Source: a virus. Taken from it: 45,287 nt of DNA. The stretch is from IMG/VR virus record IMGVR_UViG_3300023179_000180, positions 1 to 45,287 of that record, one strand, 5' to 3'. Position numbers and translations under genes: made by a program. Under the pieces are notes generated by a model. That model searched no databases and was not told the DNA's origin. It saw only the letters and a list, made by a program, of their open reading frames with translations. This document shows positions 6,413-43,946 of this stretch, one piece after another (positions within the stretch are counted from its first letter, which is position 1; every line of letters begins with the position of its first letter).

Positions 6413-6702
6413 TGGATATAAATCGTCTACAAGAACTAGTATCTGAATCATTACGTAACTGGTTTAAAAAAGAGGACTGGGTGCGTATTGATACTCAAGG
6501 TAATATTACTGGTCCTTGTGGTTCGATGAAAAAAGGTGGAGCTACAACACGTTGTTTACCTCGTAAAAAAGCTCAATCATTATCTAAAGCCGAAAGAGCA
6601 AAAACCTCTAAGAAAAAAGCTGCTGGTTCTCGCAAGGGAAAACAATTTGTAAAGAATACAGAAAAAGCAGAATATAAAAAAGGCACATATAATAAAAAAT
6701 AA
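6412..6702 (+). CDS. Small basic two-cysteine phage protein
   Basis: A 96-residue protein beginning with the amphipathic helix MDINRLQELVSESLRNWFKKE, then GPCGSMKKGGATTRCLP and a strongly basic tail, SLSKAERAKTSKKKAAGSRK. The PCG...RCLP...SKAERA pattern recurs in small phage proteins of unknown role. The positive charge makes DNA or RNA binding plausible. It starts on the upstream stop (TAATGG) and is followed by an intergenic TATTTAT element before the next gene, so it probably closes a translationally coupled group. VSE-S in the leader helix is a weak match to the prohead-protease site. Confidence 0.7.
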   Translation: MDINRLQELVSESLRNWFKKEDWVRIDTQGNITGPCGSMKKGGATTRCLPRKKAQSLSKAERAKTSKKKAAGSRKGKQFVKNTEKAEYKKGTYNKK

Positions 6703-6704
6703 CA

Positions 6705-6711
6705 TATTTAT
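6705..6711 (+). promoter_or_regulatory. TATTTAT element (variant of the recurring octamer)
   Basis: TATTTATC lies in the 20-base gap before the gene at 6723. It is one base short of the octamer TATTTATA found upstream of at least nine other genes here. Promoter or initiation-enhancing role is inferred from recurrence only. Confidence 0.35.
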
Positions 6712-6722
6712 CAACATATATT

Positions 6723-8204
6723 ATGGCAAAATTTGATTTAAAAAAAGCAATATTAGAAAATAAAGCTACCTTCTTTGGCTCACTAAACGAAGGTCAATTC
6801 TCTTGGATAACTCAAGATACAGGACAACAAATTGGATCTGAAGATGAAAACAGGATTCCTGTTTACATGTTTGATAATAAAGGCAATTATTATTATGAAA
6901 ATAGATATGATGGGTATGGTGATTTTGGTGGTAAAGATTACTACGAATTATTAGCCCAAATGAATGGTTATGCTAAAGGTGATAGAATGGATGGAATTGA
7001 TATGGCTTTTGGTAAAATGAAAACCCCAAATGGAGGTCCAGTATTATTCCCAGCATTAGTTACTAAACCAAACGAGTTTAATTTTAAAACCCACGATTTT
7101 ACTAAAGAAGCAGAAAGCGATCCTAACCAATCTTGGTACGCCCCAGAAGAAGAAGAAGATTTTATTGATCAAAACGATGAAGAAGTGTTTGGAGATAATG
7201 AGGATGAAGAGGATGATATGATGGAAGGTAAAAAAGAATATTACAAAGACGCAGAAGCAGATGATGCCGAGCATATTAAAGCACTAGAAAAAGACATGAA
7301 AGACGATAAAACATCAGGCAAAATGAAAATGTCTGAATTTAAAGCTAAAATCAAAGAAATGATTTTAAAGGAAATGGAGGATGAAAAGGTAGATGACATC
7401 AATGATGAGACTCCCGAATCTGAAGAAGATTTCTTAGCCGAATTAGAAGGCATGTTAGATGAAGCTAAAGGTGATGAAGAAGTTACAGACGATGTAACAA
7501 CAGATGCTTCTACAGATGCGGCTCCAGCAGACGATACAGAAACTATTGATACTACAACTACTACAGAAGTTAATCCTGACGTAAAAGCAGTTCAAGATGC
7601 TTTAACACAAGCTCAAGCCGCCGCTCAACAATTAGGAGACCAAAAATTAACAGACCAAATTGGTAATACAATTACTTTCTTTACTCGTGCTCACGTAGTT
7701 GAAAAAGGTGCTGTAGCTGAAGTTGAAGAAAAAGTAAATGAAGCTTTAGGTTTAGTATCATTGATTACCATTCTTATAGCTTCCCTACTACTTAATCCTA
7801 TATCAGGACCATTATTAATGGGTTTATTTAAATACCTTTTCCAAGATCTTCCTGAACAAAGAGCTAAAGCAAAAGAATTAAAGACATACAATGGACCTGA
7901 TAAGAAAGAACAAGTTTTAGCTTTAGCTAAAGAAATTGAATCCCAACTATCTCCAGGTAAAAAGAAATATTTAACTTCACTAGTTAATGCAATTGGTAAA
8001 TCAAAACTTGAAGATGAAGCTAAAGCATACCAAGAACTAGATTCATATGCTAAAAGAGAAAAAAATCTAATGGCTCGTGAATTAAATGAAAACATAAATG
8101 TTGATCTTGAAAATGCTCTAGAAGATCTTCCTATTCCAATGGATATGGAAGAAGAAACATTAAATGAATCAATGTTCCCAATGTTAAAGAAAATTTTAAA
8201 ATAA
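6723..8204 (+). CDS. Large acidic phage protein with hydrophobic segment, candidate ejection protein
   Basis: A 493-residue protein. The leader MAKFDLKKAILENKATFFGSLNEG carries L-N-E-G, a good prohead-protease site. A compact domain follows (YYYENRYDGYGDFGGKDYYELL...NGYAKGDRMDGID...). Next is a very acidic linker and a second leader-like helix, KMSEFKAKIKEMILKEME, near residue 200. A Thr/Asp-rich spacer is followed by a hydrophobic segment, LVSLITILIASLLLNP, around residues 343-375 and flanked by amphipathic helices. The hydrophobic stretch could cross a membrane, which would suit an ejected protein that conditions the host envelope. Two leader-like helices suggest that two ancestral genes have fused. 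No homologue is named. Confidence 0.7.
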   Translation: MAKFDLKKAILENKATFFGSLNEGQFSWITQDTGQQIGSEDENRIPVYMFDNKGNYYYENRYDGYGDFGGKDYYELLAQMNGYAKGDRMDGIDMAFGKMKTPNGGPVLFPALVTKPNEFNFKTHDFTKEAESDPNQSWYAPEEEEDFIDQNDEEVFGDNEDEEDDMMEGKKEYYKDAEADDAEHIKALEKDMKDDKTSGKMKMSEFKAKIKEMILKEMEDEKVDDINDETPESEEDFLAELEGMLDEAKGDEEVTDDVTTDASTDAAPADDTETIDTTTTTEVNPDVKAVQDALTQAQAAAQQLGDQKLTDQIGNTITFFTRAHVVEKGAVAEVEEKVNEALGLVSLITILIASLLLNPISGPLLMGLFKYLFQDLPEQRAKAKELKTYNGPDKKEQVLALAKEIESQLSPGKKKYLTSLVNAIGKSKLEDEAKAYQELDSYAKREKNLMARELNENINVDLENALEDLPIPMDMEEETLNESMFPMLKKILK

Positions 8205-14378: not shown

Positions 14379-15746
14379 ATGAACAAGAAAATTGTAATTG
14401 TAGGATCAGGTGTAGCAGGTGTAAATGCTGCCACCAAATTAGTAGACAATGGTTACGATGGTAAATTAATTACCATTATTGATATGGGTAAAGACCCTTA
14501 CAACAGAAAACCTGAGGAAGTAATGACAGGTTTCCTAGGTGCTGGAGGTTGGTCTGATGGCAAATTGACTTACCATACAGCTATTGGAGGTCAATTATCT
14601 AAATATACAGGTGAAAAGAAAGCAATGGCTTTAATGGATGAAGTTATTACTAACTTTAAACGTTTCCATCCTAAACCAGAGGAAGTACAATGTTCAAATC
14701 CAATTGAAGAACCAAATTTTATTAAACCATATTTTGGTTTAAGATTATTTCCTGTTTGGCACGTAGGTACAGATTATTTATCTGAAATTGCTAAAAATTG
14801 GTATGATTATTTAGTATCTAAAGGTGTTAATTTCCATTGGGAAGCTAAAGTAACATCTATTGTATTTGATAAAAATTTAGTATTTGTTAAAGAATTAAAT
14901 CAATATGTTATTGATAAACAAGGATTTCCTGATTTTGAAATATCTTATGATGAACTTATTTTTGCTGTAGGTAAATCAGGTATTGATTTTGCTCAACAAA
15001 TACAAGATGATTATAAATTAGAAACTGAACCTAAATCAGTACAAATTGGAGTTAGATTTGAAGCACCACAACATCACTTCCAGAAACTAATTGATATTAG
15101 TTACGATTTTAAATTGTATCGTAAGTTTGATACAGGTGTTTCATTACGTTCATTTTGTACAAATAATAATGCCGCTTACGTTGCTGTAGAGGAAACATAT
15201 GGTGATGTTACTTACAATGGTCATGCTAAAAAAGATCCTAAATACCTAAACGGAATGACTAATTTTGGTATTATTATGGAAATTAAGGACATTGAAGATC
15301 CATTTGCTTGGTCTCGTAAAGTAGTAAATAAATTACAATCAAATGGTACTGGATTATATTATTCACCATCCAGAACTTCATCAACAACATCAGAAGGTGA
15401 AAAAGTTAGCTCAATCCAAATTGATAGTTTAGATATAGTAAGACGGGGAATGGGTAAATATTGGAATTACATAGAGGATTTTATTGAGGATATGAAGAAA
15501 GTATTTCCAACACTTAAAGATGATTGGGGTGTTTATGTTCCTGAAGTAAAATATTTGTCACCTGAACCATTAGTTTATCCTAAAGATTTAGCATTAGTTG
15601 ATTTTCCAAATGTTCACTTTGTAGGAGATGCCTTATCAGCTAGAGGAATTACAGTTTCAGGAGCACAAGGTATTTTAGCTGTAGAAAAATTTGTAACCGA
15701 AGATGAATGGGATAACATTCATGGGGATATGACTTATTGGAAATAA
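14379..15746 (+). CDS. FAD-dependent dehydrogenase-like oxidoreductase
   Basis: A 455-residue flavoprotein. An N-terminal Rossmann fold has IVIVGSGVAGVNAA (G9-x-G11-x-x-G14). A C-terminal FAD-contact motif, HFVGDALSARGITVSGAQG, is followed by a helix, ILAVEKF. The overall layout resembles uncharacterised FAD-dependent dehydrogenases (the COG2509 type) rather than thioredoxin reductase: no redox CxxC is seen and the middle is a long substrate domain. It is presumably cytoplasmic; the substrate is unknown. The gene stands between a terminator and its own TATTATATTA element, so it is an independently expressed accessory metabolic gene, not part of the virion operon. Confidence 0.8.
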   Translation: MNKKIVIVGSGVAGVNAATKLVDNGYDGKLITIIDMGKDPYNRKPEEVMTGFLGAGGWSDGKLTYHTAIGGQLSKYTGEKKAMALMDEVITNFKRFHPKPEEVQCSNPIEEPNFIKPYFGLRLFPVWHVGTDYLSEIAKNWYDYLVSKGVNFHWEAKVTSIVFDKNLVFVKELNQYVIDKQGFPDFEISYDELIFAVGKSGIDFAQQIQDDYKLETEPKSVQIGVRFEAPQHHFQKLIDISYDFKLYRKFDTGVSLRSFCTNNNAAYVAVEETYGDVTYNGHAKKDPKYLNGMTNFGIIMEIKDIEDPFAWSRKVVNKLQSNGTGLYYSPSRTSSTTSEGEKVSSIQIDSLDIVRRGMGKYWNYIEDFIEDMKKVFPTLKDDWGVYVPEVKYLSPEPLVYPKDLALVDFPNVHFVGDALSARGITVSGAQGILAVEKFVTEDEWDNIHGDMTYWK

Positions 15747-26616: not shown

Positions 26617-28374
26617 ATGTCAAACGTACAACAATTATTAGAAAGCGCTGCTGGTTCTTGGAAGAACTTGCAAAGCGATGCCGCTAAATTAGCTGGCAAA
26701 TGGTCTAAGACCGGATTGTTAGAAGGTTTGGTTGAGGTTGATAAAAACAATATGTCATTATTGTTGGAAAACCAAGCCAAACAGTTGGTAACTGAATCAA
26801 ACCAAATTACTTCTAACTCATTCTACACTTCAGGCGGAACAGGCGAAAACTGGGCTGGTATTGCATTACCTTTAGTTCGTAAGGTATTCGGTACAATCGT
26901 AGCTAAAGAATTCGTTTCAGTTCAACCAATGAACATGCCTTCAGGACTTGTGTTCTTCTTGGATTTCCAATACGGTAACGAGAAAACTCCATATGCTGCT
27001 GGTACTTCTTTGTATGGTAACCGTAACACTGCTTCTCAGTTCCCATTCTCTACAGTTGATGCAACTGGTGGTTTGTATGGTGGTCCTTCAGGACGTTTCA
27101 CTTACGCTACTAACACTTTTTCAGCTTCTTTCCAAATGTCAGCTTCAGTAGCTAACACTTTGACTAGAACTGCTGCTGGAACTGGTTCTATCGTATCTGC
27201 TTCATGGGCTGATTGTAATTTTGATTCTGATTACTCTGCTTCTGTAGCATCAGGTCAAATGTACAAAATGACTATCACTGCCTCTAACAGTACCTTACCT
27301 AGCTTTGACCAAGACGCAGTTCGTGGTTTTATAATGGCTTCAGGTTCTAACTTCGGTGTTACTACTTTAGTACCTGCTTTTACAGACTACAACTACACTG
27401 CTAATACTATTAGCTTCGTATTTACTGGTTCAGCTAACTTTGCTACAACTCCTCAGTCTGGATCTACTTTCATCGTTACTTATGAAAAAGCAACTTCTCA
27501 AGATGGTTTGAACGTAACTTCTGGTGACAACGTAACTACAGGTAACTACTCAGGTCGTGGTGATTTCGAAGCTTCTGGTTCTTTCTCATTACCTTCTAGT
27601 GCTTCTGCTACTCAGATCGTTATCCCTGAGATCAACGTAAGAATGCAATCACAGCCTATCACTGCTAAAACCAAGAAATTGAAAGCAGTATGGACTCCTG
27701 AATTCGCTCAAGATTTAGCTGCTTACCAAAACATCGATGCTGAAGCTGAATTGACTAACATCATGTCTGAGTACATTTCAATGGAAATTGATTTGGAAAT
27801 TTTGGATATGTTGATTGAAGATGCTTCTGCTGCTACTGAGTACTGGTCTGCTATTAACAACACTGTTTACTCAAACGGTAACTTCGCTACTGCTGCTTCT
27901 GGATTCTACAACACTCAAGGTCAATGGTTCCAAACTTTAGGAACTAAGATCCAAAAGGTGTCCAACAAGATCCACCAGTTGACTTTACGTGGAGGTGCTA
28001 ATTTCTTGGTTACTTCTCCTACAGTAGCAACTATCTTGGAATCAATCCCAGGATTTGCTTCTACTTCAAACGGTGAGGCTGATCAAATGGAATATGCTTT
28101 CGGTGTACAGAAAATCGGTACAGTAAACGGTCGCTACAAGGTTTACAAGAACCCTTACATGACTGAAAACTTGATCCTTATGGGTTACAGAGGTTCTCAG
28201 TTCTTGGAAACAGGTGCTGTATTCGCTCCTTACATTCCTTTAATCATGACTCCTCTAGTTTACGATCCAGAAACCTTCACACCACGTAAAGGTTTGTTAA
28301 CTCGTTACGCTAAGAAGATGTTACGTCCCGAATTCTATGGTAAGATCTACATCAGTGGATTGAACACCATCTAA
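26617..28374 (+). CDS. 23: Major capsid protein (T4 gp23-like)
   Basis: A 585-residue protein. GIALPLVRKVFGTIVAKEFV and SVQPMNMPSGLVF match the T4 gp23 block with VQPMNSPTG, and AEAELTNIMSEYISMEIDLE matches the T4 segment around DADAEL. A removable N-terminal peptide probably ends at QLVTE-S (after E60; T4 gp23 is cut after residue 65); LLE-S and LLE-G sites lie earlier. An extra Ser/Thr-rich domain around residues 160-330 is likely a surface insertion. The leader is A-rich and lacks Shine-Dalgarno. Codon use differs from the neighbours (many C-ending codons, TTG for Leu), typical of a very highly expressed gene. Confidence 0.97.
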   Translation: MSNVQQLLESAAGSWKNLQSDAAKLAGKWSKTGLLEGLVEVDKNNMSLLLENQAKQLVTESNQITSNSFYTSGGTGENWAGIALPLVRKVFGTIVAKEFVSVQPMNMPSGLVFFLDFQYGNEKTPYAAGTSLYGNRNTASQFPFSTVDATGGLYGGPSGRFTYATNTFSASFQMSASVANTLTRTAAGTGSIVSASWADCNFDSDYSASVASGQMYKMTITASNSTLPSFDQDAVRGFIMASGSNFGVTTLVPAFTDYNYTANTISFVFTGSANFATTPQSGSTFIVTYEKATSQDGLNVTSGDNVTTGNYSGRGDFEASGSFSLPSSASATQIVIPEINVRMQSQPITAKTKKLKAVWTPEFAQDLAAYQNIDAEAELTNIMSEYISMEIDLEILDMLIEDASAATEYWSAINNTVYSNGNFATAASGFYNTQGQWFQTLGTKIQKVSNKIHQLTLRGGANFLVTSPTVATILESIPGFASTSNGEADQMEYAFGVQKIGTVNGRYKVYKNPYMTENLILMGYRGSQFLETGAVFAPYIPLIMTPLVYDPETFTPRKGLLTRYAKKMLRPEFYGKIYISGLNTI

Positions 28375-28404
28375 TTCTAGTAAAGAAATAACATTTCTGT
28401 AAAG

Positions 28405-28432
28405 AAGCCCCGAGAAATCGGGGCTTTTTTTT
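28405..28432 (+). terminator. Strong Rho-independent terminator after the capsid gene
   Basis: AAGCCCCGA (28405-28413) pairs with TCGGGGCTT (28418-28426). The loop is GAAA, a stable tetraloop, followed by eight T (28425-28432). It is the clearest terminator in the window. Confidence 0.93.
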
Positions 28433-28486: not shown

Positions 28487-29401
28487 ATGAAAGAGACTCC
28501 AAGTCAGTTACCCATCCAAAGTTTTGTTATGAACTTTCCATTCTCATTGTCTACAGCAGATCCAAATAATATTTGGATGCAGGAATTAACAGATGATGAA
28601 TTAGCAATTAATAAACCTAAAGCATACAAACAGTTTATGGATTTGTATAACTTTGTTGCTGGTGGGGCTGTAGTTAATCTATTACCTTCGGAAGGTAATT
28701 TTCAAGACCAAGTTTATGTAGCTAATTTAGGTATTTATTTACCTCATATTAAAGACGAAAATCATATTATTTTATCTAACTTTACTTCTGATCCTCGTAA
28801 AGGTGAGGAATTGGTTGGAGAAAAATATTTTAACCAAATGGGTTATAAAACAGCAATATCTCCCTTTAAATGGGAAGGCGAGGCTGATTTAAAGTACCTT
28901 TACGGAAACAAATATATTGGTGGTTATGGTATCCGCTCTAACATCAAAGCATATGAGTGGATGGAAGAAACTTATGGTATGGACATCCTTAAAGTAGCTA
29001 TGGTTGATGAATATTTGTATCACTTGGATTGCTCTATTTTTGCTTTAAATCAAGAACAAACATTAGTTTGTACTGAATTGTTTGATGAGGAAGAATTAGT
29101 TGAAATGGAAAAATATACTGAAATAATTAACATTGATGTTGATGATGCTTTAGGAGGAATAACTAATTCAGTCCGTTTAGGTAATATGATCATGTGTGCT
29201 TCAAACATTTCCGAATTAAAGAAATCACATGAATATTATGCAGGTGAGGTTCATAAAATTAAGACATTAGAAAAGATTTGTAGTGATGCTGGTATGGAAC
29301 CAGTTATCTTTAATCTTTCAGAATACATGAAATCAGGTGCTATGTTATCTTGTATGATGATGCACTTAAACCGAGTTGACCATAACAGAACCTTATTATA
29401 A
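28487..29401 (+). CDS. Guanidino-group-modifying enzyme (arginine deiminase/DDAH/amidinotransferase superfamily)
   Basis: A 304-residue protein. FQDQVYVANLGIYLP (residues 72-86) matches the superfamily motif PDxVFxANxG. KWEGEAD (128-134) holds the substrate-binding acidic residues, YGIRSN follows, YHLDC holds the catalytic His (H179), and the C-terminal SGAMLSCMMMH holds the nucleophilic Cys (C289). All catalytic positions are kept, so it should hydrolyse or transfer a guanidino group via a Cys-amidino intermediate; the substrate (arginine, methylarginine, agmatine or other) is undecided. It opens a new unit after the capsid terminator, with a weak TATAAT at 28472-28477. It is coupled by TAATG to the PSD-like gene, suggesting joint action. 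Confidence 0.82.
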   Translation: MKETPSQLPIQSFVMNFPFSLSTADPNNIWMQELTDDELAINKPKAYKQFMDLYNFVAGGAVVNLLPSEGNFQDQVYVANLGIYLPHIKDENHIILSNFTSDPRKGEELVGEKYFNQMGYKTAISPFKWEGEADLKYLYGNKYIGGYGIRSNIKAYEWMEETYGMDILKVAMVDEYLYHLDCSIFALNQEQTLVCTELFDEEELVEMEKYTEIINIDVDDALGGITNSVRLGNMIMCASNISELKKSHEYYAGEVHKIKTLEKICSDAGMEPVIFNLSEYMKSGAMLSCMMMHLNRVDHNRTLL

Positions 29402-30129
29402 TGGCTCAAACATTACAAGAATGGATAAGTACTGAGGTTAAACAACTTCAGAAGATGCCTGTAGGGGAATTATCTAATACATTTTTCTTTAGAGATCCAA
29501 TTCGTCCAAATTATATTGACCATGAGCACTTTTACGCACCAGCTGATGGAACTATTTTATACCAAAAGTTTATTAAAGATCCTTCTGAACCTATAGTTGA
29601 AATTAAGGGTATGAATTATACTCTTCAAGATGTTGTTGGTGATGATGAATATAATAAACCTTCACTAGTTATCGGTATATTTATGTCATTTTATGATGTT
29701 CACATCAATCGTATACCTTACGGAGGTCTGCTGTCATATAAACCACTAGACGCGATACAATCAACTAACAAACCAATGTTAGCGGTTGAAAAAGATATAT
29801 TAAATAAGAAAATTAATCCCGCAAACATGGAGTACTTAAAGTATAACGAGAGGATGTGGAATAAAATTTATTCACCTTCCTTAGATTATACTTATTACTT
29901 AATTCAGATTGCTGACGAGGATGTAAACGTTATTGCTCCATTTACTATGGCTCAAAACGATGTTTTTGCTCAAAACGAAAGATTTTCTTTAATAAGATGG
30001 GGTTCACAAGTAGATTTAGTGTTACCATTAGATGACAGATATGATTTCGAGTTATGTTTAGATGATGCCATGCATGTTAATGCTGGTATAGATGCGTTAA
30101 TAAAGATTAACTTTAATGAATATTTATAA
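29401..30129 (+). CDS. Phosphatidylserine decarboxylase-like protein
   Basis: A 242-residue protein of the pyruvoyl-dependent decarboxylase family. FFFRDPIRP opens the family block. YAPADG (Asp49), SFYDVHINRIP (His101) and RWGSQVDLVLP (Ser202) line up with the E. coli Psd Asp90, His147 and Ser254 triad that self-cleaves and turns Ser into the pyruvoyl cofactor. EIKGMNYTLQDVVG is also typical. It is shorter than bacterial Psd and lacks a hydrophobic N terminus. Converting phosphatidylserine to phosphatidylethanolamine, or decarboxylating another amino compound, is expected. It is coupled to the guanidino enzyme by TAATG. This is an unusual phage cargo. Confidence 0.85.
   Translation: MAQTLQEWISTEVKQLQKMPVGELSNTFFFRDPIRPNYIDHEHFYAPADGTILYQKFIKDPSEPIVEIKGMNYTLQDVVGDDEYNKPSLVIGIFMSFYDVHINRIPYGGLLSYKPLDAIQSTNKPMLAVEKDILNKKINPANMEYLKYNERMWNKIYSPSLDYTYYLIQIADEDVNVIAPFTMAQNDVFAQNERFSLIRWGSQVDLVLPLDDRYDFELCLDDAMHVNAGIDALIKINFNEYL
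30121..30128 (+). promoter_or_regulatory. TATTTATA element
   Basis: This octamer overlaps the last codons and stop of the PSD-like gene and lies 4 bases before ATG 30133. It forms a weak AT hairpin with the start region (TATTTA with TAAATG). Confidence 0.4.
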
Positions 30130-30132
30130 TAA

Positions 30133-30669
30133 ATGTTTACTAAAATATATTTAGTTGAAAATTGTTATGATAATCCTAATTGGGTTTATATAGGTAAAAC
30201 TAAAAATTGTAGAAAAAATGATCATAAACAAAAGTTTGGAAAACAAATTACCTATACTATAATTGATGAAATAAGTAGTAATAATAAAAACGATTGGACT
30301 CCTATAGAATCTTATTGGATAGAACAATTTAAAGTTTGGGGTTTTAAGGTATTAAATAAAAATACTGGAGGTGGTGGTCCTGCTTATAGAACTAAAGAAT
30401 TTATAGATAACCAAATTAAAAGACAAACCGGTTCTAAACAGACTCAAGAAACTTGTAAAAAAAGAAGTGAATCAACTAAAGGAAAACCCAAACCAGAAGG
30501 ATTTGCTGAAAAATTAAAAAATAGAAAATATTCTCCTGAAACTTTAGAAAAAATGAGATTAGCTAAAATAGGAAAATCTTCAGGTCATAAAGGAAAATCA
30601 ATAAGTGAAGAACATAAAAAAGCTATTAGTCAAGCTTTAAAAGGAAGAATAAGCCCTAATAAAAAATGA
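30133..30669 (+). CDS. GIY-YIG homing endonuclease with NUMOD3 motifs
   Basis: A 178-residue protein. KIYLVEN and VYIGKTK (YIG at residues 19-21) form the GIY-YIG core. Glu59 in PIESYWIEQF is the metal-binding catalytic residue, and N75 lies in LNKNTGGGGP. The C-terminal third has NUMOD3-like DNA-binding repeats (SPETLEKMRLAKIG, SEEHKKAISQALKG). It cuts phage DNA at a specific site to spread its own gene, as T4 Seg proteins do. It overlaps the start of PhoH by 4 bases (ATGA) and has inserted between an accessory pair and PhoH. Confidence 0.92.
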   Translation: MFTKIYLVENCYDNPNWVYIGKTKNCRKNDHKQKFGKQITYTIIDEISSNNKNDWTPIESYWIEQFKVWGFKVLNKNTGGGGPAYRTKEFIDNQIKRQTGSKQTQETCKKRSESTKGKPKPEGFAEKLKNRKYSPETLEKMRLAKIGKSSGHKGKSISEEHKKAISQALKGRISPNKK

Positions 30670-31403
30670 ATACAAAACCAACCCATGAAGATGATATCTT
30701 TCAAGAAAAGCGTAAGCCAAAAAATCCTATTAAGTTTAAAATCCAATTAAACGAGGAACAAAAAGCCGCTAAAGCTAAAATATTAGAAAGTACAATTACA
30801 TTGTTAGCCGGAGCCGCTGGTTCAGGTAAAACATTACTTGCCTGTCAGATTGGTTTAGAAAAACTATTTATGAGAGATGTTGAAAAGGTAATTATTACCC
30901 GACCAACAGTATCTAAAGAGGAAATAGGATTCTTACCAGGTGATTTAAGGGAAAAAATGGATCCTTGGGTTCAACCTATTTATCAAAACATGTTCTTGCT
31001 TTACGATAAAGTAAAAGTAGAAGAACTTATTAAAGAGGGTAAAATAGAGATTGTTCCTGTATCGTTTATGAGAGGTAGAACGTTTGTAAACTCTGTAGTA
31101 ATAGTAGATGAGGCTCAAAACGTAACACACGAACAAATGGAAATGATTGTTACCCGTATTGGTAAAGGATCAAAAATGATTATTTGTGGTGATGATGGCC
31201 AGGTAGATTTAAAACAAAAGCGCGATTCTGGATTTAAGTTTTTATACTCAGCCGCTAAAAAAATTAAAAACCTTTGTGCCATATCACTAAAACAAAACCA
31301 CAGAGATCCAATCGTAGAGGATTTAATTAATCTATACAACGATGCATATGAACAGGGTATTAGTCTAAATACTACGGGTTCAAACGGAAATTCTAAAAAG
31401 TAA
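30666..31403 (+). CDS. phoH: PhoH family P-loop ATPase
   Basis: A 245-residue protein. A Walker A motif, GAAGSGKT (residues 49-56), is followed by VIITRPTVSKEEIGFLPG, MRGRTFVNSVVIVDEAQN with Walker B, and GDDGQVDL, all family signatures. SLKQNHRDPIVEDLI closes the domain. PhoH is frequent in T4-like phages of marine and freshwater bacteria. In hosts it belongs to the phosphate-starvation regulon, and RNA-related ATPase or helicase activity has been proposed for the family. Its phage role is unsettled. Its start overlaps the homing endonuclease stop, so expression is tied to upstream transcripts. Confidence 0.96.
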   Translation: MNTKPTHEDDIFQEKRKPKNPIKFKIQLNEEQKAAKAKILESTITLLAGAAGSGKTLLACQIGLEKLFMRDVEKVIITRPTVSKEEIGFLPGDLREKMDPWVQPIYQNMFLLYDKVKVEELIKEGKIEIVPVSFMRGRTFVNSVVIVDEAQNVTHEQMEMIVTRIGKGSKMIICGDDGQVDLKQKRDSGFKFLYSAAKKIKNLCAISLKQNHRDPIVEDLINLYNDAYEQGISLNTTGSNGNSKK

Positions 31404-34709: not shown

Positions 34710-37700
34710 ATGGCTGAGAATAGAAATAGAGGTAATAATCGTTTAGACAACCCAAACCAAGGTAGAGGTTTTTTTGATAGGTCATTAGCTTTTAATAAAT
34801 TTAACTTACCTATTGTAACTCAAGGATGGGAAGGTTATGTTTTAACTATAAATGATGATGGAGTTGTATCTTTAGTTTTAGGAGTAGGAAATGGTACCGC
34901 GGGTACTTCAGGTACTTCAGGCTCTTCAGGCTCAGCAGGTTCAAGTGGTTCTAGTGGTTTATCTGGTTCTAATGGCACTTCAGGCATAAATGGTTCTTCA
35001 GGTACTTCAGGTACAACAGCTGGTACTAGTGGTACATCAACTACAGCAGGTTCTTCAGGAACAAGTGGTAGTTCAGGTTCAACTGGTTCTTTTGGTACAA
35101 GTGGTATAGCAGGTACTTCAGGTACTAGTGGAGGTACAAGTGGTACTGCTGGCTCTAGTGGTTCTGTTGGTTCTTCAGGAACAGCAGGTACTTCTGGCTC
35201 AAGTGGTTCTAACGGTTCATCAGGTAATGGTGGTAACTCAGGCCAATCAAGCACTTCAGGTACTTCAGGCTCATCAGGCTCAGCAGGTACCTCAGGATTA
35301 AGTCAATCAAGTGGTACAGTTGGTACCTCAGGTCTAGCAGGTTCTTCAGGTTCATCAGGAACTGGTGGTTCTTCAGGTTCAAGTGGTTCAAACGGTTCAT
35401 CAGGTAATGCTGGAAACTCAGGCCAATCTAGTACTGCAGGTACTAGTGGGTCAAGCGGTTCAACAGGTACAAGTGGTTTATCACAAACAAGTGGTTCAAA
35501 CGGTACTTCAGGCAGTTCAGGTTCTTCAGGTTCAATAGGAACTAGTGGAGCTAGTAATACATCAGGCACAAATGGAACAAGTGGTTCAAGTGGTTCTTCA
35601 GGCTCTACAGGTACATCAGGTGTAGATGGAGGTTCAGGTGCTTCTAGTACTTCAGGTACAAGTGGCTCTTCAGGTTCAGCAGGCTCATCAGGTACTTTTG
35701 GTACTTCAGGTAATGCGGGTACTTCAGGTTTAAGTAATACAAGTGGTTCTAGTGGTTCAGCAGGATCCTTTGGTACAACAGGTAATGCAGGTACTTCAGG
35801 TTCTAGTAACACTTCAGGAACTAGTGGTTCAGGTGGTTCTAACGGAACAACAGGAAATGCAGGTAACAGTGGACAAAGTTCTACATCAGGCACTTCAGGT
35901 TCAAGTGGTAGTACTGGTACATCAGGACTATCTCAATCTTCTGGTTCAGCTGGTTCAAGTGGTTCTTCAGGTTCTACTGGAACATCAGGCTCAAGTGGTT
36001 CTTCAGGTTCTTCAGGAACATTTGGTTCTAGTGGAGCTGACGGCTCTTCAGGCTCTTCAGGCACTTCAGGTTCATCTGGTTCTACAGGTTCATTCGGTAG
36101 TTCAGGAGCAGCAGGTACATCAGGTAACTCAAATACTGCAGGTACATCAGGATCAGGAGGTTCAAATGGAACAACCGGAAACGCAGGTAACTCAGGTCAA
36201 TCAAGTACATCAGGTACAAGTGGCTCTTCAGGCTCAGTTGGTACTTCAGGTTTAAGTCAAACTAGTGGTACTAATGGTACCTCTGGTACTTCTGGTTCAA
36301 CAGGTTCAGCAGGCTCAAGCGGTGGAGATGGTACTTCAGGTTCATCAGGCACTTCAGGATCTAGTGGATCAACAGGTTCAGCAGGTTCTTCAGGCAATAG
36401 TCAAACATCTGGTTCATCTGGAAGCTCAGGCTCTTCAGGTTCATCAGGTACAACAGGTACATCAGGACTAGCAGGTGCTAGTGGTTTATCTAATACAAGT
36501 GGAACTTCTGGTTCAGGAGGTTCTAATGGAAGTTCAGGAGCAGCAGGTTCTGCAGGTACATCAGGTACAGCAGGTACATCTGGCTCTTCAGGTACTTCAG
36601 GTTCTAGTGGTTCTACAGGTTCTTCAGGTTCAAGTGGTGGAGATGGTACTTCTGGTTCTGCTGGAACAAGTGGTTCAAGCGGATCTACAGGTACTTTTGG
36701 TACTTCAGGTAATGCAGGTACTGCTGGTAACTCAAATACTTCAGGTACTTCAGGATCAGGTGGTTCTAATGGAACAACTGGAAACGCAGGTAATAGTGGA
36801 CAAAGTTCCACATCAGGTACTTCAGGTAGCTCAGGTTCAACTGGTACTTCAGGATTAAGTCAAACAAGTGGTACTAATGGTACTTCCGGTAGTTCAGGTT
36901 TATCAGGATCTGTAGGTACTTCAGGTTCTTCAGGCACAGCTGGTTCAACAGGTACAAATGGTTCATCAGGTAATGCTGGAACTTCTGGATCTTCAAACAC
37001 TTCAGGTTCTAGTGGTAGTTCAGGTACATCAGGTATAGCAGGTGCCGCTGGTTTTTCTGCTCAAAGTGCAACCTCAGGTACAAGTGGTTCAGGTGGTTCA
37101 AATGGAACTACAGGAGCGGCAGGTACATCAGGTTCAAGTCAAACTAGTGGTTCAGCAGGTAGTTCAGGTTCTCAAGGTAGTACTGGTGCTGCAGGCACTT
37201 CAGGATTAAGTCAAACAAGTGGTTCTAGTGGATCAAGTGGTTCACAAGGTAGCACAGGAGCAGCAGGTACATCTGGAACTTCTAATACAAGTGGTTCATC
37301 TGGTTCTGCAGGTTCATTTGGAACAACAGGAGACGCAGGTACATCAGGTAATTCAAATACCTCAGGTACAAGTGGGTCAGGTGGTTCAAATGGTACTACA
37401 GGAAACGCAGGTCAATCTAGTACTTCAGGTACTAGTGGTTCTAGTGGTTCTTCAGGTTCAGCAGGTTCAACAGGTTCTGCAGGAACAAGTGGAGCAAGTA
37501 ATACAGCAGGTTCTTCAGGCTCATCTGGTTCTTCAGGCAACTCAGGTACTGCTGGTACTTCAGGTTCTAGTGGTTCTTCAGGTTCAACTGGTACATCAGG
37601 TGTAGATGGAGGTTCAGGCGTTTCAGCAACTTCTGGTACATCAGGTTCTAGTGGTTCTCAAGGTAGCACAGGAGCAGCTGGTACTTCAGGAGCTTCTAAT

Positions 37701-40700
37701 ACAAGCGGATCAAGTGGTTCAGGTGGATCATTTGGTACAACAGGTAACGCAGGTACATCAGGTCTATCTAATACATCAGGTTCTTCTGGTTCTGCAGGAT
37801 CAAACGGTACTACAGGAGATGCAGGTATCTCAGGATCAAGTAATACTTCAGGTACTAGTGGATCAGGTGGTTCAAACGGAACTACAGGTGCTGCTGGTAT
37901 ATCAGGTGCTTCAAATACTTCAGGAACTAGTGGTTCAGGAGGTTCAAACGGAACTAACGGAGCAGCAGGAGCCTCAGGAGCAAGTAATACTTCAGGCACA
38001 TCAGGTTCAGCAGGTTCTTCAGGTACTACAGGTACTTCAGGTCTAGCAGGTGCTAGTGGTGTTTCAAATACCTCAGGCACAAGTGGATCAGGTGGTTCTA
38101 ATGGTACAGGAGGTGCAGCAGGTACTTCAGGAAATTCAAATACTTCAGGTACTAGTGGTTCAGGTGGATCACAAGGTACTACAGGGGCAGCAGGTACTTC
38201 AGGTGCCTCTAATACAAGTGGTTCAGCTGGTTCAGGAGGTTCTAATGGAACAACTGGTAATGCTGGTACTTCAGGTTCATCTAATACATCAGGCTCATCT
38301 GGTTCTTCAGGAACTTCAGGTATAGCAGGAGCAGCAGGTTTTTCTGCTCAAAGTGCAACTTCTGGTACTTCAGGTTCAGCTGGTTCTAACGGAACAGGCG
38401 GAGCAGCAGGTACTTCAGGAGCAAGTAATTCAAGTGGTTCTAGTGGTTCAGCTGGTTCTCAAGGTACAACAGGTAATGCTGGTACTTCTGGAGCAAGTAA
38501 TACTTCAGGATCAAGCGGCTCGGCAGGTTCAAACGGAACTTCAGGAGCAGCAGGTAACTCAGGTTTTTCAAATACAAGTGGAACTTCTGGTTCAGGTGGT
38601 TCTAACGGTACTTCAGGTGCTGGAGGAGCTTCAGGAGCAAGTAACACTTCAGGTACAAGTGGTTCAGGAGGTTCTAATGGAACTAATGGAGCTGCAGGAG
38701 CTTCAGGTGCATCAAATACTAGTGGTACTTCTGGTTCTGCAGGTTCATCTGGTTCTACAGGAACTTCAGGTGTAGATGGAGGTTCAGGTGCTTCTGCTAC
38801 CTCTGGTACTTCAGGTAGTTCAGGTTCTAATGGAACAACAGGAAACGTAGGTACTTCAGGTTCAAGTCAAACTAGTGGTTCAAGCGGGTCAGGTGGATCT
38901 TTTGGTACAACAGGTAATGCAGGAACTTCAGGCGCCTCAAATACTTCAGGAACTAGTGGTTCAGGTGGTTCTAATGGAACAACAGGAGCAGCTGGTGCTT
39001 CAGGTGCCTCTAATACTTCAGGAACCTCAGGTTCAGGAGGTTCAAATGGTACTTCAGGTGCTGCAGGAGCCTCAGGAGCAAGTCAAACAAGTGGTTCAAG
39101 TGGTACAAGTGGATCAGCAGGATCTTCTGGTACAACAGGTACTTCAGGACTAGCAGGAGCAAGTGGTATATCAAATACAAGTGGTACTTCAGGATCAGGC
39201 GGTTCTAACGGAACAACAGGTGCAGCAGGAGCTTCAGGTTCATCTAATACATCAGGTACAAGTGGTTCAGGTGGTTCAGTAGGAACCTCAGGTGCTGCTG
39301 GTGCCTCAGGTTCAAGTAATACAAGTGGTACTAGTGGATCAGGTGGTTCAGCAGGTACTACAGGAGCAGCTGGAGCCTCAGGCTCAAGCAATACTAGTGG
39401 TACTTCAGGTTCAGGTGGTTCTAACGGAACAACAGGGGCAGCAGGTACTTCAGGTTCATCAAATACAGCAGGTTCAAGTGGTTCATCTGGTACTTCAGGT
39501 ATAGCAGGTGCTGCAGGTTTTTCAGCTCCTTCAGGCACTAGTGGTACCTCAGGTTCAGCAGGTACTTCAGGACTAACATTTAATGGTTCTTCAGGAATAA
39601 GTGGTGGTACATTTGTTAACCAACCAAATTATTTAGTAAGAACTACAGGTACTACTACTATACAAAGTGTATCTTTCTTATATTCAGATGTTACTAACTG
39701 TAGATTAGGTGTAAATTGTACATCTCCAACAGTAGCTATTGATACAGCAGGTGCTATTAAGTCTACCTTAGATTCAGCATTTAATAGTGTTAGTATTGGT
39801 TTAGGAGGAGGAAGTGTTTCAACTAATACTAGAGTAGGTGTTAATACTTTAGCAGCAAATACAACAGGTGCATATAACACTGCTTTAGGTATTTGCGCCT
39901 TAAGATATAACACAACAGGTTTAGCTAACACCGCTATAGGTAGATTAGCGGCTCGTGATAATACAGTAGGTAGTGGTAATGTTGCTATTGGTAATTTTGC
40001 TTCCGGATTTAATTCAGCAGGTAATAATAACATAGCAATAGGTTCTGTAGCTTTACTAAATAACCAAACGTCAAACAATATAGGAATAGGCTCTTATTCA
40101 TTATGTACTAACACAACAGGTTACAGTAATACAGCTATTGGTTCTAGTGCATTGCAGAATAATACAACAGGTAATAATAACGTAGCTGTAGGTGTATCAG
40201 CTCTTTGTACTAATACAACTGGTAGAAGTAACGTAGCAGTTGGACAACAATCACTTCAACAAAATACAACAGGTATTTGTAATACTGCTTTAGGAGCATT
40301 ATCACTTCGAAATAATACTACCGGTGCATTTAATACAGCATTAGGTCGGGCATCACTTTATGCTAATACAGGCGGTAGTAACAATACCGCACTTGGTTAT
40401 AATGCACTTGTTCAAAATACAGCATCAAATAATGTAGCTGTCGGTAAAGAAACATTACCTAATAATACTACAGGAACTTTAAATACCGCTGTTGGTACTC
40501 AAGCACTTTTTTCTAATAGCGCCGGTAATAACAATACAGCTTTAGGATATCAATCACTATTTTGTAATACAGCATCAAACAACACAGCAGTTGGTTTCCG
40601 TGCATTGAGAAGTAATACAACAGGAACTCAAAACGCAGCTTTAGGTAGAGCTTCTTTAAGAAATAATACAACAGGAGATTTTAATACAGCTTTAGGGGAT

Positions 40701-43700
40701 AGTGCTTTATATAACAACACTACAGGAGCAAGTAACACAGCCGTAGGATTAAATGCTATGGTATTTAATACCACAGGTATTTGTAATACAGCCGTAGGTC
40801 GTAACGCTTTATATACTAATACAGGAGGTGTATTTAACTCAGCTTTTGGTAATAACGCATTATTAACAAACACAACAGGTAATTTTAACTCAGCTTTTGG
40901 TCAAGCAGCACTTAGACAAAATACTGTTGGTTCTTATAACTCAGGATTTGGTAGATATGCTTTATTTTATAATGTAAGTGGAGGAAAAAATACTGCTGTA
41001 GGACATCAAGCATTATGTAAAAACTTAGCATCAAACAATACAGCAATAGGGTACAGCTCTTTAGCAAACAATACAACAGGTATCTACAATACTGCTGTTG
41101 GTAGGACATCAATGCAGTCTAACACAACAGGTACTAGAAATACGGCAGTAGGTTATAGCTCTCTTAGATGTAATACAATAGGCAATTACAACGTAGCTTT
41201 AGGTAATAGAACTTTATTACTTAATACTACAGGTACAGGTAATACCGCGGTTGGGTATCGTAGTATGGAAGCTAACATAGTTGGTGTTAATAACACAGCA
41301 TTAGGAAGGTATTCTTTATTCTGTAACACAGCTTCAAACAATACAGCAGTTGGTTTTCAATCATTATTTTGTAATACAACAGGTAGGTACAACACAGCAG
41401 TAGGTAATAGTACTTTATTAAATAATACAACAGGATGTAGAAATACCGCGTTAGGTTTAGAAGCTCTAAGGTGTACTACTACAGGAAATAATAACACAGG
41501 ACTTGGTTCTGGAACACTATATCTTAATACAACAGGTGCTAATAATACTGCTGTAGGTACTTTTGCATTAAATCTAAATACAGCCTCACGCAATACAGCT
41601 GTAGGTTACTGTGCATTAAGAAATAATACAACCGGTACACAAAACGAGGCTGTAGGTTTTAGAGCAATGAAATCAAATACTACTGGATTTGATAATATTG
41701 CAATGGGTTCCTATGCTTTACATAGTAATCTTAGCGGTTGCGCAAACGTAGCTCTTGGTCCAGAAGCTCTTGGCAGTAATACAGCCGGTAATAATAACGT
41801 AGCTGTAGGTAGAAATGCTTTACTCTGTAACACAGCCTCAAACAATACAGCAGTAGGTTTCTGTGCTTTAAGAAGTAATACAACAGGAACATATAACGTA
41901 GCAGTTGGTTGTGGTGCTTTAAGATGCAACACAGTTGGTCTTCGTAATTCAGCTTTTGGTCGTGAAGCATTAGCTGTTAATACAACAGGACAACAAAACT
42001 CTGCTTTTGGTATTAATGCTTTATTGTTTAATAATGCTAATTACAACTCTGCATTTGGAGCTTACTCAATGCAGGGCACAACAACGGGCGGTAGTAATAC
42101 TGCTTTAGGATCCGCAGCTTTATTTAGTAATACAACCGGTGCTAATAATACAGCTTTAGGAAGAAATGCTTTAAACAGTAATACAACTGGCACCAATAAC
42201 ACAGCCGTTGGTCTTCAATCCTCTAATAACAACACTACAGGTACTAATAATACATCTTTAGGTGTTAATTCTTTATTTTCAAACACAACCGGAGGTAATA
42301 ACATAGCTTTAGGTATAAATTCATTATGTTCTGCTACTGTAAATAACTACAATGTAGGTGTAGGTTCAAATACATTACGAGTTAATACAAATAACTATAA
42401 CACAGCCCTTGGTGGTGCTGCTTTATGTTCAAATACAGGTGGTGCTAGTAACGTGGCTGTAGGAACCAGTGCAATGCAGGTTGGAAATGCTGGTTCAAAC
42501 AATACAGCTGTTGGTTTCCAATCAATGTTGTATAATACTGCTAATAGTAATACTGCTGTAGGTTTTTGTTCATTAAGACAAAATACAACAGGAGGTAATA
42601 ATACAGCTTTAGGATTTTGTTCTTTAAGAGCTAATACAACAGGAGCTTACAATACAGCTGTAGGTTTTAATTCATTAAGAGAAAATACAGTAGGTAGTTT
42701 TAATACTTCAGTTGGTAGAACAGCTATGTACTGCAATACTACAGGTAGGTATAATACTTCACTTGGATACAGTGCTCTACGAAATAATACAACAGGAGAT
42801 AATAACACTTCAGTAGGTAGAAGCGCACTTGAATGCAATTTAGCCTCAAACAATACAGCAGTAGGCTTCTGTGCATTAAGAAATAATACAACAGGAACAG
42901 CAAATACAGCAGTTGGTACATCAGCCTTAGGATCTAATACAACAGGACTATATAATACTGCTTTCGGATGTCGTGCATTAGCAGCTAACACAACTGCTAG
43001 CAACAACACAGCAATTGGTGAAGCAGCTATGCTTAACAATACTACAGGAGCTGGTAACAGTGCATTCGGTAGATTAGCATTGTTGAATAATACAACAGGA
43101 TACCAAAATACAGCATTAGGTGTAAGTGCTTTAAGATATAATACAACTGGAGCAAACAATACATCAGTTGGTGTTTTTGCTCTACAGAAAAACACAAGTG
43201 GAGCTAGAAACATAGCTGTTGGTTTAAGTGCTTTAATTAACAATACCACAGGTGTTGAAAACGTAGCAATGGGAGTTAATGCTATGTATGGAAATACAAG
43301 TGGATATTCTAATGTAGGTATAGGATATAGAGCTTTAGTATTTGCTAGCGGTATTAGAAATATAGCAGTAGGTCAAAATGCTTTAGCCAATGCAACCGGT
43401 ACTAGAAATATTGGAATAGGTATTGCTTCTGGTTGTTGTATTACTTCAGGTGCTTGTAACGTAATTTTAGGAGGTGCAAGTGCTAACGGATTCGGTACTC
43501 AAAACTGTAACATCTTCATTTCAGACGGAGCAGGTAACATAAGAATCTTTGCTACCGGATCAACAGGATTTGTTGGTGTTGGACCAGGATTTACATCCCC
43601 TACATATCCATTACACGTTTCTGGTTCTTCAGGTGGTATTTCAATTTATGCCACTAACGATATAGCTGCTTTTTCAGATGAATCTGTCAAAACTGATTTA

Positions 43701-43946
43701 CAAGTTATAGACAATGCTTTAGAAAAAATTGAACAAATCCACGGATACACATATGTTCGTACAGACGATGAAACAGGTACAAGAAGAGCAGGTGTTATAG
43801 CCCAAGAAATACAAAAAGTGTTGCCTGAGGTTGTTACACAAAACCCGGACGGTACTTTAAACGTTGCTTATCCTAACTTAGTAGCTTTGTTAATTGAGGC
43901 AATTAAGGAATTAAACGAGGAAATAAAAGAACTAAAAAGTAAATAA
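34710..43946 (+). CDS. Giant tail-fibre/adhesin with Gly-X-Y repeats, beta-roll repeats and S74 chaperone
   Basis: A 3078-residue protein. Residues 1-61 form a virion-attachment-like domain (FFDRSLAFNKF, LPIVTQGWEGYVL). About residues 62-1632 are triplets G-X-Y with Ser, Thr, Ala and Asn but almost no Pro, a collagen-like shaft. About residues 1708-2909 hold roughly fifty repeats of about 23 residues centred on NTAxG...AL..NTTG, like the beta-roll heads of trimeric adhesins. A final beta domain leads to a peptidase-S74 intramolecular chaperone, FSDESVKTDL, with Ser2989 and Lys2994 at the spacing of the self-cleavage dyad, then AGVIAQEIQKVLPEVV. Cleavage before Ser2989 would release 90 residues after trimerisation. 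It is the likely receptor-binding fibre. Confidence 0.92.
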   Translation: MAENRNRGNNRLDNPNQGRGFFDRSLAFNKFNLPIVTQGWEGYVLTINDDGVVSLVLGVGNGTAGTSGTSGSSGSAGSSGSSGLSGSNGTSGINGSSGTSGTTAGTSGTSTTAGSSGTSGSSGSTGSFGTSGIAGTSGTSGGTSGTAGSSGSVGSSGTAGTSGSSGSNGSSGNGGNSGQSSTSGTSGSSGSAGTSGLSQSSGTVGTSGLAGSSGSSGTGGSSGSSGSNGSSGNAGNSGQSSTAGTSGSSGSTGTSGLSQTSGSNGTSGSSGSSGSIGTSGASNTSGTNGTSGSSGSSGSTGTSGVDGGSGASSTSGTSGSSGSAGSSGTFGTSGNAGTSGLSNTSGSSGSAGSFGTTGNAGTSGSSNTSGTSGSGGSNGTTGNAGNSGQSSTSGTSGSSGSTGTSGLSQSSGSAGSSGSSGSTGTSGSSGSSGSSGTFGSSGADGSSGSSGTSGSSGSTGSFGSSGAAGTSGNSNTAGTSGSGGSNGTTGNAGNSGQSSTSGTSGSSGSVGTSGLSQTSGTNGTSGTSGSTGSAGSSGGDGTSGSSGTSGSSGSTGSAGSSGNSQTSGSSGSSGSSGSSGTTGTSGLAGASGLSNTSGTSGSGGSNGSSGAAGSAGTSGTAGTSGSSGTSGSSGSTGSSGSSGGDGTSGSAGTSGSSGSTGTFGTSGNAGTAGNSNTSGTSGSGGSNGTTGNAGNSGQSSTSGTSGSSGSTGTSGLSQTSGTNGTSGSSGLSGSVGTSGSSGTAGSTGTNGSSGNAGTSGSSNTSGSSGSSGTSGIAGAAGFSAQSATSGTSGSGGSNGTTGAAGTSGSSQTSGSAGSSGSQGSTGAAGTSGLSQTSGSSGSSGSQGSTGAAGTSGTSNTSGSSGSAGSFGTTGDAGTSGNSNTSGTSGSGGSNGTTGNAGQSSTSGTSGSSGSSGSAGSTGSAGTSGASNTAGSSGSSGSSGNSGTAGTSGSSGSSGSTGTSGVDGGSGVSATSGTSGSSGSQGSTGAAGTSGASNTSGSSGSGGSFGTTGNAGTSGLSNTSGSSGSAGSNGTTGDAGISGSSNTSGTSGSGGSNGTTGAAGISGASNTSGTSGSGGSNGTNGAAGASGASNTSGTSGSAGSSGTTGTSGLAGASGVSNTSGTSGSGGSNGTGGAAGTSGNSNTSGTSGSGGSQGTTGAAGTSGASNTSGSAGSGGSNGTTGNAGTSGSSNTSGSSGSSGTSGIAGAAGFSAQSATSGTSGSAGSNGTGGAAGTSGASNSSGSSGSAGSQGTTGNAGTSGASNTSGSSGSAGSNGTSGAAGNSGFSNTSGTSGSGGSNGTSGAGGASGASNTSGTSGSGGSNGTNGAAGASGASNTSGTSGSAGSSGSTGTSGVDGGSGASATSGTSGSSGSNGTTGNVGTSGSSQTSGSSGSGGSFGTTGNAGTSGASNTSGTSGSGGSNGTTGAAGASGASNTSGTSGSGGSNGTSGAAGASGASQTSGSSGTSGSAGSSGTTGTSGLAGASGISNTSGTSGSGGSNGTTGAAGASGSSNTSGTSGSGGSVGTSGAAGASGSSNTSGTSGSGGSAGTTGAAGASGSSNTSGTSGSGGSNGTTGAAGTSGSSNTAGSSGSSGTSGIAGAAGFSAPSGTSGTSGSAGTSGLTFNGSSGISGGTFVNQPNYLVRTTGTTTIQSVSFLYSDVTNCRLGVNCTSPTVAIDTAGAIKSTLDSAFNSVSIGLGGGSVSTNTRVGVNTLAANTTGAYNTALGICALRYNTTGLANTAIGRLAARDNTVGSGNVAIGNFASGFNSAGNNNIAIGSVALLNNQTSNNIGIGSYSLCTNTTGYSNTAIGSSALQNNTTGNNNVAVGVSALCTNTTGRSNVAVGQQSLQQNTTGICNTALGALSLRNNTTGAFNTALGRASLYANTGGSNNTALGYNALVQNTASNNVAVGKETLPNNTTGTLNTAVGTQALFSNSAGNNNTALGYQSLFCNTASNNTAVGFRALRSNTTGTQNAALGRASLRNNTTGDFNTALGDSALYNNTTGASNTAVGLNAMVFNTTGICNTAVGRNALYTNTGGVFNSAFGNNALLTNTTGNFNSAFGQAALRQNTVGSYNSGFGRYALFYNVSGGKNTAVGHQALCKNLASNNTAIGYSSLANNTTGIYNTAVGRTSMQSNTTGTRNTAVGYSSLRCNTIGNYNVALGNRTLLLNTTGTGNTAVGYRSMEANIVGVNNTALGRYSLFCNTASNNTAVGFQSLFCNTTGRYNTAVGNSTLLNNTTGCRNTALGLEALRCTTTGNNNTGLGSGTLYLNTTGANNTAVGTFALNLNTASRNTAVGYCALRNNTTGTQNEAVGFRAMKSNTTGFDNIAMGSYALHSNLSGCANVALGPEALGSNTAGNNNVAVGRNALLCNTASNNTAVGFCALRSNTTGTYNVAVGCGALRCNTVGLRNSAFGREALAVNTTGQQNSAFGINALLFNNANYNSAFGAYSMQGTTTGGSNTALGSAALFSNTTGANNTALGRNALNSNTTGTNNTAVGLQSSNNNTTGTNNTSLGVNSLFSNTTGGNNIALGINSLCSATVNNYNVGVGSNTLRVNTNNYNTALGGAALCSNTGGASNVAVGTSAMQVGNAGSNNTAVGFQSMLYNTANSNTAVGFCSLRQNTTGGNNTALGFCSLRANTTGAYNTAVGFNSLRENTVGSFNTSVGRTAMYCNTTGRYNTSLGYSALRNNTTGDNNTSVGRSALECNLASNNTAVGFCALRNNTTGTANTAVGTSALGSNTTGLYNTAFGCRALAANTTASNNTAIGEAAMLNNTTGAGNSAFGRLALLNNTTGYQNTALGVSALRYNTTGANNTSVGVFALQKNTSGARNIAVGLSALINNTTGVENVAMGVNAMYGNTSGYSNVGIGYRALVFASGIRNIAVGQNALANATGTRNIGIGIASGCCITSGACNVILGGASANGFGTQNCNIFISDGAGNIRIFATGSTGFVGVGPGFTSPTYPLHVSGSSGGISIYATNDIAAFSDESVKTDLQVIDNALEKIEQIHGYTYVRTDDETGTRRAGVIAQEIQKVLPEVVTQNPDGTLNVAYPNLVALLIEAIKELNEEIKELKSK
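34893..39606 (+). repeat. Low-complexity Gly-X-Y coding repeat (GGT ACT TCA type)
   Basis: About 4.7 kb built of 9-base triplets such as GGTACTTCA and GGTTCAAGT. Larger blocks recur: the GVDGGSG block near 35621, 37600 and 38772, and the GIAGAAGFSA block near 37030, 38320 and 39500. Also recurrent is the unit NTSGTSGSGGSNGT. Synonymous codons differ between copies, so selection keeps the amino-acid pattern. Prone to length change by recombination. Confidence 0.93.
39831..43435 (+). repeat. NTAxG beta-roll repeats (about 69-base period)
   Basis: Roughly fifty degenerate repeats of 22-24 codons with core N-T-A-(V/L)-G-x-x-(A/S)-L-x-x-N-T-T-G. A shorter variant, N-T-A-S-N-N-T-A-V-G, recurs several times (for example near 40570, 41330 and 41840). 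This makes a higher-order pattern in which blocks of repeats seem duplicated. Confidence 0.9.

Follow-up and report, generated by a model that had tools for sequence, protein, structure and literature searches.

Two genes that lie side by side between the major capsid gene and phoH of a T4-like phage raise the question of which reactions their products catalyze, and whether they work as a pair. The window analyzed here, meaning the whole stretch of DNA, is a 45-kb IMG/VR fragment that also encodes a prohead protease, a portal protein, and TerL. The first protein belongs to the ArgZ/dimethylargininase-type penteins (NCBIfam E of about 1e-22) and is called here the guanidino-modifying enzyme (GME); the second belongs to the phosphatidylserine decarboxylase (PSD) family and is called PSD-like. 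The genes and their surroundings are listed in Table 1. The original prediction, made from this DNA alone, described two intact reading frames overlapping as TAATG and forming a unit behind the capsid terminator, and both points were confirmed. The GME stop codon TAA (29399-29401) has one base in common with the PSD-like ATG (29401), and a strong hairpin (arms 28401-28413/28418-28430; z = -6.9) follows gp23; a simple consensus terminator scan did not list this hairpin. The homing endonuclease after the pair is probably outside the pathway considered below. Downstream of the structural genes, positions 34710-43946 hold one 3078-aa ORF.

Table 1. Features of the gp23-phoH region of the window
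Feature	Position	Strand	Length
gp23 (major capsid gene), bordering the cassette site upstream	26617..28374	+	
Terminator-like hairpin plus T run, after gp23 and before the pair	28401..28432	+	
GME/pentein enzyme, predicted to be arginine dihydrolase-like (phrog_12759)	28487..29401	+	304 aa
TAATG stop/start overlap from GME to PSD-like	29399..29403	+	
PSD-family pyruvoyl decarboxylase (phrog_12670), predicted soluble amino acid (ornithine) decarboxylase	29401..30129	+	242 aa
Homing endonuclease (NUMOD3; phrog_314), adjoining the PSD-like gene	30133..30669	+	
phoH-like gene, bordering the cassette site downstream	30666..31403	+	

The gene pair is real, conserved, and linked, and among the viruses examined the two genes were inherited only together. 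Scanning IMG/VR with either protein yielded about 150 loci, and once duplicates were removed both genes were present in 96 distinct viral sequences, which rules out adjacency by chance. The one-base overlap was identical at 92 of the 95 junctions that could be scored. In one locus, L127, a homing endonuclease-like ORF (1919-2668), related to the endonuclease of the window, separates the GME and PSD genes. The four single-gene cases in this set were all located at contig ends. A search based on gp23, which gives a less biased sample, covered 60 loci in which 2.6 kb or more follow gp23: the gp23-phoH site carried the pair in 16, neither gene in 44, and one gene alone in none. No GME was found anywhere in two long contigs lacking the pair. 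Codon comparisons gave a dN/dS of about 0.06-0.08 for the GME and of 0.03-0.1 for the PSD-like gene. In most relatives without the pair, phoH directly adjoins gp23. The interval between them is a variable cargo site, as seen in six loci where small "MPNLPISGLP..." proteins or HNH-like endonucleases replace the cassette or lie beside it.

Both genes also occur in isolated phages, with 39 records from Campylobacter phages and 6 from Bacteroides phages. They are adjacent in the Bacteroides phages, and in Campylobacter Fletchervirus (NCTC12673) both are kept about 43 kb apart. Retention of both genes at separate sites argues for a functional tie, although the Campylobacter phages amount to one genus only. 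In trees addressing whether the phage pairs had one origin or several, the Campylobacter and Bacteroides rows sit on long branches. In the Campylobacter phages, Hef endonucleases overlap the PSD gene. Xanthomonas phage phiXF1 encodes a distant GME (23%) at 5977-6795, with an annotation as dimethylarginine hydrolase; its record gave no PSD match.

An ArgZ-type arginine dihydrolase converts arginine to ornithine, CO2, and 2 NH3. By its modeled structure, the GME looks like such an arginine dihydrolase and not like an amidinotransferase. Its AlphaFold model (pLDDT 94.6) had ArgZ/AgrE as its 13 best PDB matches (6jv0, E 1.6e-21, TM 0.89), followed by DDAH (1e-12), amidinotransferases (1e-11), and agmatine deiminase (1e-9), which places ArgZ/AgrE ahead of DDAH by about 7 orders of magnitude. 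Of amidine hydrolysis and transfer, both named in the original prediction, hydrolysis is the better fit. In the sequence alignment, N80 aligns to AgrE Asn71 and C289 to Cys264, and the titles of ArgZ/AgrE entries in the PDB name N71S, C264S, and C264A mutant structures. Asn71 is said, in work by Zhuang et al. from 2020, to distinguish dihydrolases. The GME is about 21% identical to ArgZ and scores 79.8 bits against NF052232, under the arginine dihydrolase equivalog-domain cutoff of 450, so it is not filed as a member of the ArgZ type, only as working like one. Its score against NF045659 (dimethylargininase) is 80.6 bits, with a cutoff of 300.

The residues N80, R104, E130, D134, R150, H179, D181, and C289 were invariant in 94 viral GME proteins. 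In ADI and DDAH, two arginines grip the substrate carboxylate (PMC11659421), and from their position R104 and R150 are candidates for this role in the GME. Their retention in all viral copies points to an amino acid substrate and not to agmatine. This bears on an alternative in which the PSD-like enzyme would convert arginine to agmatine, from which the GME would then make either putrescine or N-carbamoylputrescine. Pyruvoyl arginine decarboxylases of a different fold are indeed found in phages (PMC9992855), and an agmatine deiminase-like enzyme accompanies the GME in three cyanobacterial clusters. However, the GME retains both candidate carboxylate-binding arginines and is structurally much nearer to ArgZ than to the agmatine deiminase of C. 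jejuni (E 1e-21 versus 1e-9), and we regard a passage through agmatine as quite unlikely.

The second protein matches the Pfam family PS_Dcarbxylase (PF02666) with 84.2 bits, above the gathering score of 22, and retains the PADG, DVHxNR, and NER motifs and the GS cleavage site. The predicted self-cleavage site G201-S202 (codons 30001-30006) and the PSD catalytic residues were invariant in 90 viral PSD-like proteins. The catalytic residues that the original prediction had noted in this copy are conserved in both enzymes, and among viruses we saw neither their loss in close relatives nor an adjacency limited to this locus. The protein is under every NCBIfam PSD equivalog cutoff (best, 70 versus 183 bits), and no membrane segment was found in it (19-residue hydropathy maximum of 0.95), although the protein may bind membranes peripherally. 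Its model is of moderate quality (pLDDT 75), and the best fold match, PsiD, is weak (E 0.02, TM 0.47). The tryptophan decarboxylase PsiD is a PSD relative that uses a free amino acid as its substrate (PMC12099186). Specificity for ornithine is not readable from the sequence of the PSD-like enzyme. To our knowledge, no PSD fold has been described for ornithine decarboxylation.

One genome scan with the GME revealed relatives in bacteria. The actinobacterial loci have the PSD-like gene immediately before the GME, which is the reverse of the phage order. Few genomes carry the PSD-like subfamily of the pair type (3 of 299 within a single order), and three loci reached via the PSD profile alone had a GME next door in 3/3 cases. 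The outer neighbors of the bacterial pair differ (MATE, ABC exporter, amidase, and kinase), revealing the two genes as a conserved unit. In four cyanobacterial loci, the GME adjoins a PLP Orn/DAP/Arg-type decarboxylase and not a PSD-like gene, and three of the four additionally carry the agmatine deiminase-like enzyme. No PSD of the pair-type subfamily was found in the Tolypothrix genome. The swap between unrelated decarboxylases suggests that amino acid decarboxylation is the shared step, and the actinobacterial pair together with the cyanobacterial PLP partner favors an arginine-derived amino acid over a phospholipid. The cyanobacterial cluster consists, in three loci, of the PLP decarboxylase, the GME, the agmatine deiminase-like enzyme, and a transporter, and in one of them (L315) it adjoins long ORFs resembling NRPS/PKS. 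The scan also returned a relative on a Flavobacteriales MAG contig.

These partners weigh on the idea, raised in the original prediction, that the pair alters the head groups of membrane phospholipids; the PSD-like enzyme would then have phosphatidylserine as its substrate. The Pfam match and the conserved motifs agree with it, but the protein has no membrane segment and falls short of all PSD equivalog cutoffs, its partner is an arginine-type enzyme, and a PLP decarboxylase of the basic amino acid type takes its place in cyanobacteria. Phospholipid remodeling is, in our assessment, the least probable of the readings considered.

Five actinobacterial GMEs, including those of the three loci reached via the PSD profile, lack at least one catalytic or binding residue next to an intact PSD-like gene, and a plain two-step pathway leaves them unexplained. 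Judging from their sequences, they may be partner subunits (possible pseudoenzymes) or may be decaying. Together with the fixed pairing in phages, they are in line with a GME that is mainly a subunit of the PSD-like decarboxylase, as its partner or its arginine sensor, and not the preceding step of a pathway. However, the full catalytic set was found in 94/94 viral copies, in both isolated-phage families, and in 20 other bacterial copies, no viral copy examined showed a similar loss of residues, and the decarboxylase adjoining the cyanobacterial GME is an unrelated one. A subunit role comes second among the alternatives and is unlikely.

Taken as predicted chemistry, the pair probably turns host arginine into a small amine, for instance putrescine, and among the hypotheses of the original prediction the making of an amine or polyamine fits best. 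We infer the substrates, the products, the self-cleavage, and the benefit for the phage as follows. The GME would hydrolyze host L-arginine to L-ornithine as an ArgZ-type arginine dihydrolase, and the PSD-like protein would cut itself at Gly201-Ser202, generate a pyruvoyl cofactor, and decarboxylate ornithine to putrescine. Putrescine would thus be made during infection, with spermidine arising via host enzymes, and the phage supply would be independent of the host route from arginine through agmatine and N-carbamoylputrescine. That the pair is a two-step amine-making cassette of this kind, bypassing the host route, is our preferred reading, held at slightly less than even confidence.

The isolated relatives infect C. 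jejuni and B. thetaiotaomicron, in which putrescine is made via agmatine and N-carbamoylputrescine, and the last enzyme of the route, NCPAH, is inhibited in B. thetaiotaomicron by agmatine, spermidine, and putrescine (PMC10135574). A second route encoded by the phage would avoid that brake. The presence of NCPAH in both known host groups (PMC10135574) also suits another scheme, in which the GME would be an arginine deiminase producing citrulline, the PSD-like enzyme would convert citrulline to N-carbamoylputrescine, and host NCPAH would complete putrescine. Deiminases share the fold superfamily of the GME, and one actinobacterial copy adjoins an amidase. Yet double hydrolysis is favored by the Asn that the GME has where ArgZ has Asn71 and by the closest structure being that of ArgZ, and the deiminase route would still rely on the feedback-inhibited host step. 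We rank the deiminase scheme first among the alternatives, unlikely as it is.

The search for further members of the arginine-to-putrescine pathway covered the long contigs bearing the pair, where no SpeE, Orn/Arg decarboxylase (Orn_Arg_deC), or SpeD (AdoMet_dc) was found, a result that weighs against the two-step reading, and the contigs lacking it, where there was no SpeD as a substitute. An FAD/NAD dehydrogenase encoded at 14379-15746 was ruled out as a third member, being present in a contig without the pair (G009); it belongs to phrog_12409, which is common to Campylobacter Fletchervirus (about 25% identity).

Other conceivable roles of the pair are the modification of DNA bases, by way of 7-deazaguanine or thymine hypermodification, and the plain depletion of host arginine. 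The former finds some basis in the 7-amido-7-deazaguanine of Campylobacter phages of this group (cited in PMC6884629), but QueD does not track the pair: it was found in contigs lacking the pair, and searches of Bacteroides SJC03 and NCTC12673, which carry the pair, did not find it. A search for a 5-hmdU kinase, run without a positive control, gave no match, and no second thymidylate synthase-type gene was found. Arginine depletion alone leaves the decarboxylase unexplained. We consider both roles very unlikely.

If true, the two-step reading would give phages a self-contained arginine-to-putrescine module, where a survey of virus polyamine enzymes found no arginase (PMC9992855). It would also add a new fold for ornithine decarboxylation, assign a function to phrog_12759 and phrog_12670, which are unexplained families of Campylobacter and Bacteroides phages, and predict activities for a rare actinobacterial two-gene unit. 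The original prediction knew of no described phage system with this pairing. This stands for function, since the papers searched do not report the route of the pair in phages or describe the Campylobacter genes as a pair. It does not stand for the single genes, which were already annotated in Campylobacter Fletchervirus as "amidinotransferase" and "phosphatidylserine decarboxylase" and are homologous to the GME and the PSD-like protein (41% and 37% identity, respectively). The more specific claim of an undescribed phage route, in which a dihydrolase and a PSD-fold ODC form a gp23-phoH cassette that bypasses the feedback-controlled host route, is plausible but somewhat doubtful.

Compared with known systems, the GME resembles the dihydrolase domain of ArgZ (Sll1336)/AgrE (Alr4995) in its fold and at the Asn71, Cys264, His, Asp, and Arg positions, but it has no ornithine cyclodeaminase domain and is coupled to a decarboxylase. 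The PSD-like protein has the core motifs and the Gly-Ser self-cleavage site of the PSD family (including PsiD), from which it differs as a 242-aa member of a distinct subfamily that lacks a membrane segment and lies beside a GME. Among viruses, pyruvoyl ODCs of the AdoMetDC fold from freshwater myophages and the arginase and ODC route of Klosneuvirus, a giant virus, have been assayed, and the main text of that survey names neither a PSD nor a dihydrolase (PMC9992855). The pair shares with these published enzymes the logic of a virus-encoded conversion of arginine or ornithine to putrescine, whereas the GME and the PSD-like protein belong to families different from those of the AdoMetDC-fold enzymes, the PLP ODC, and arginase.
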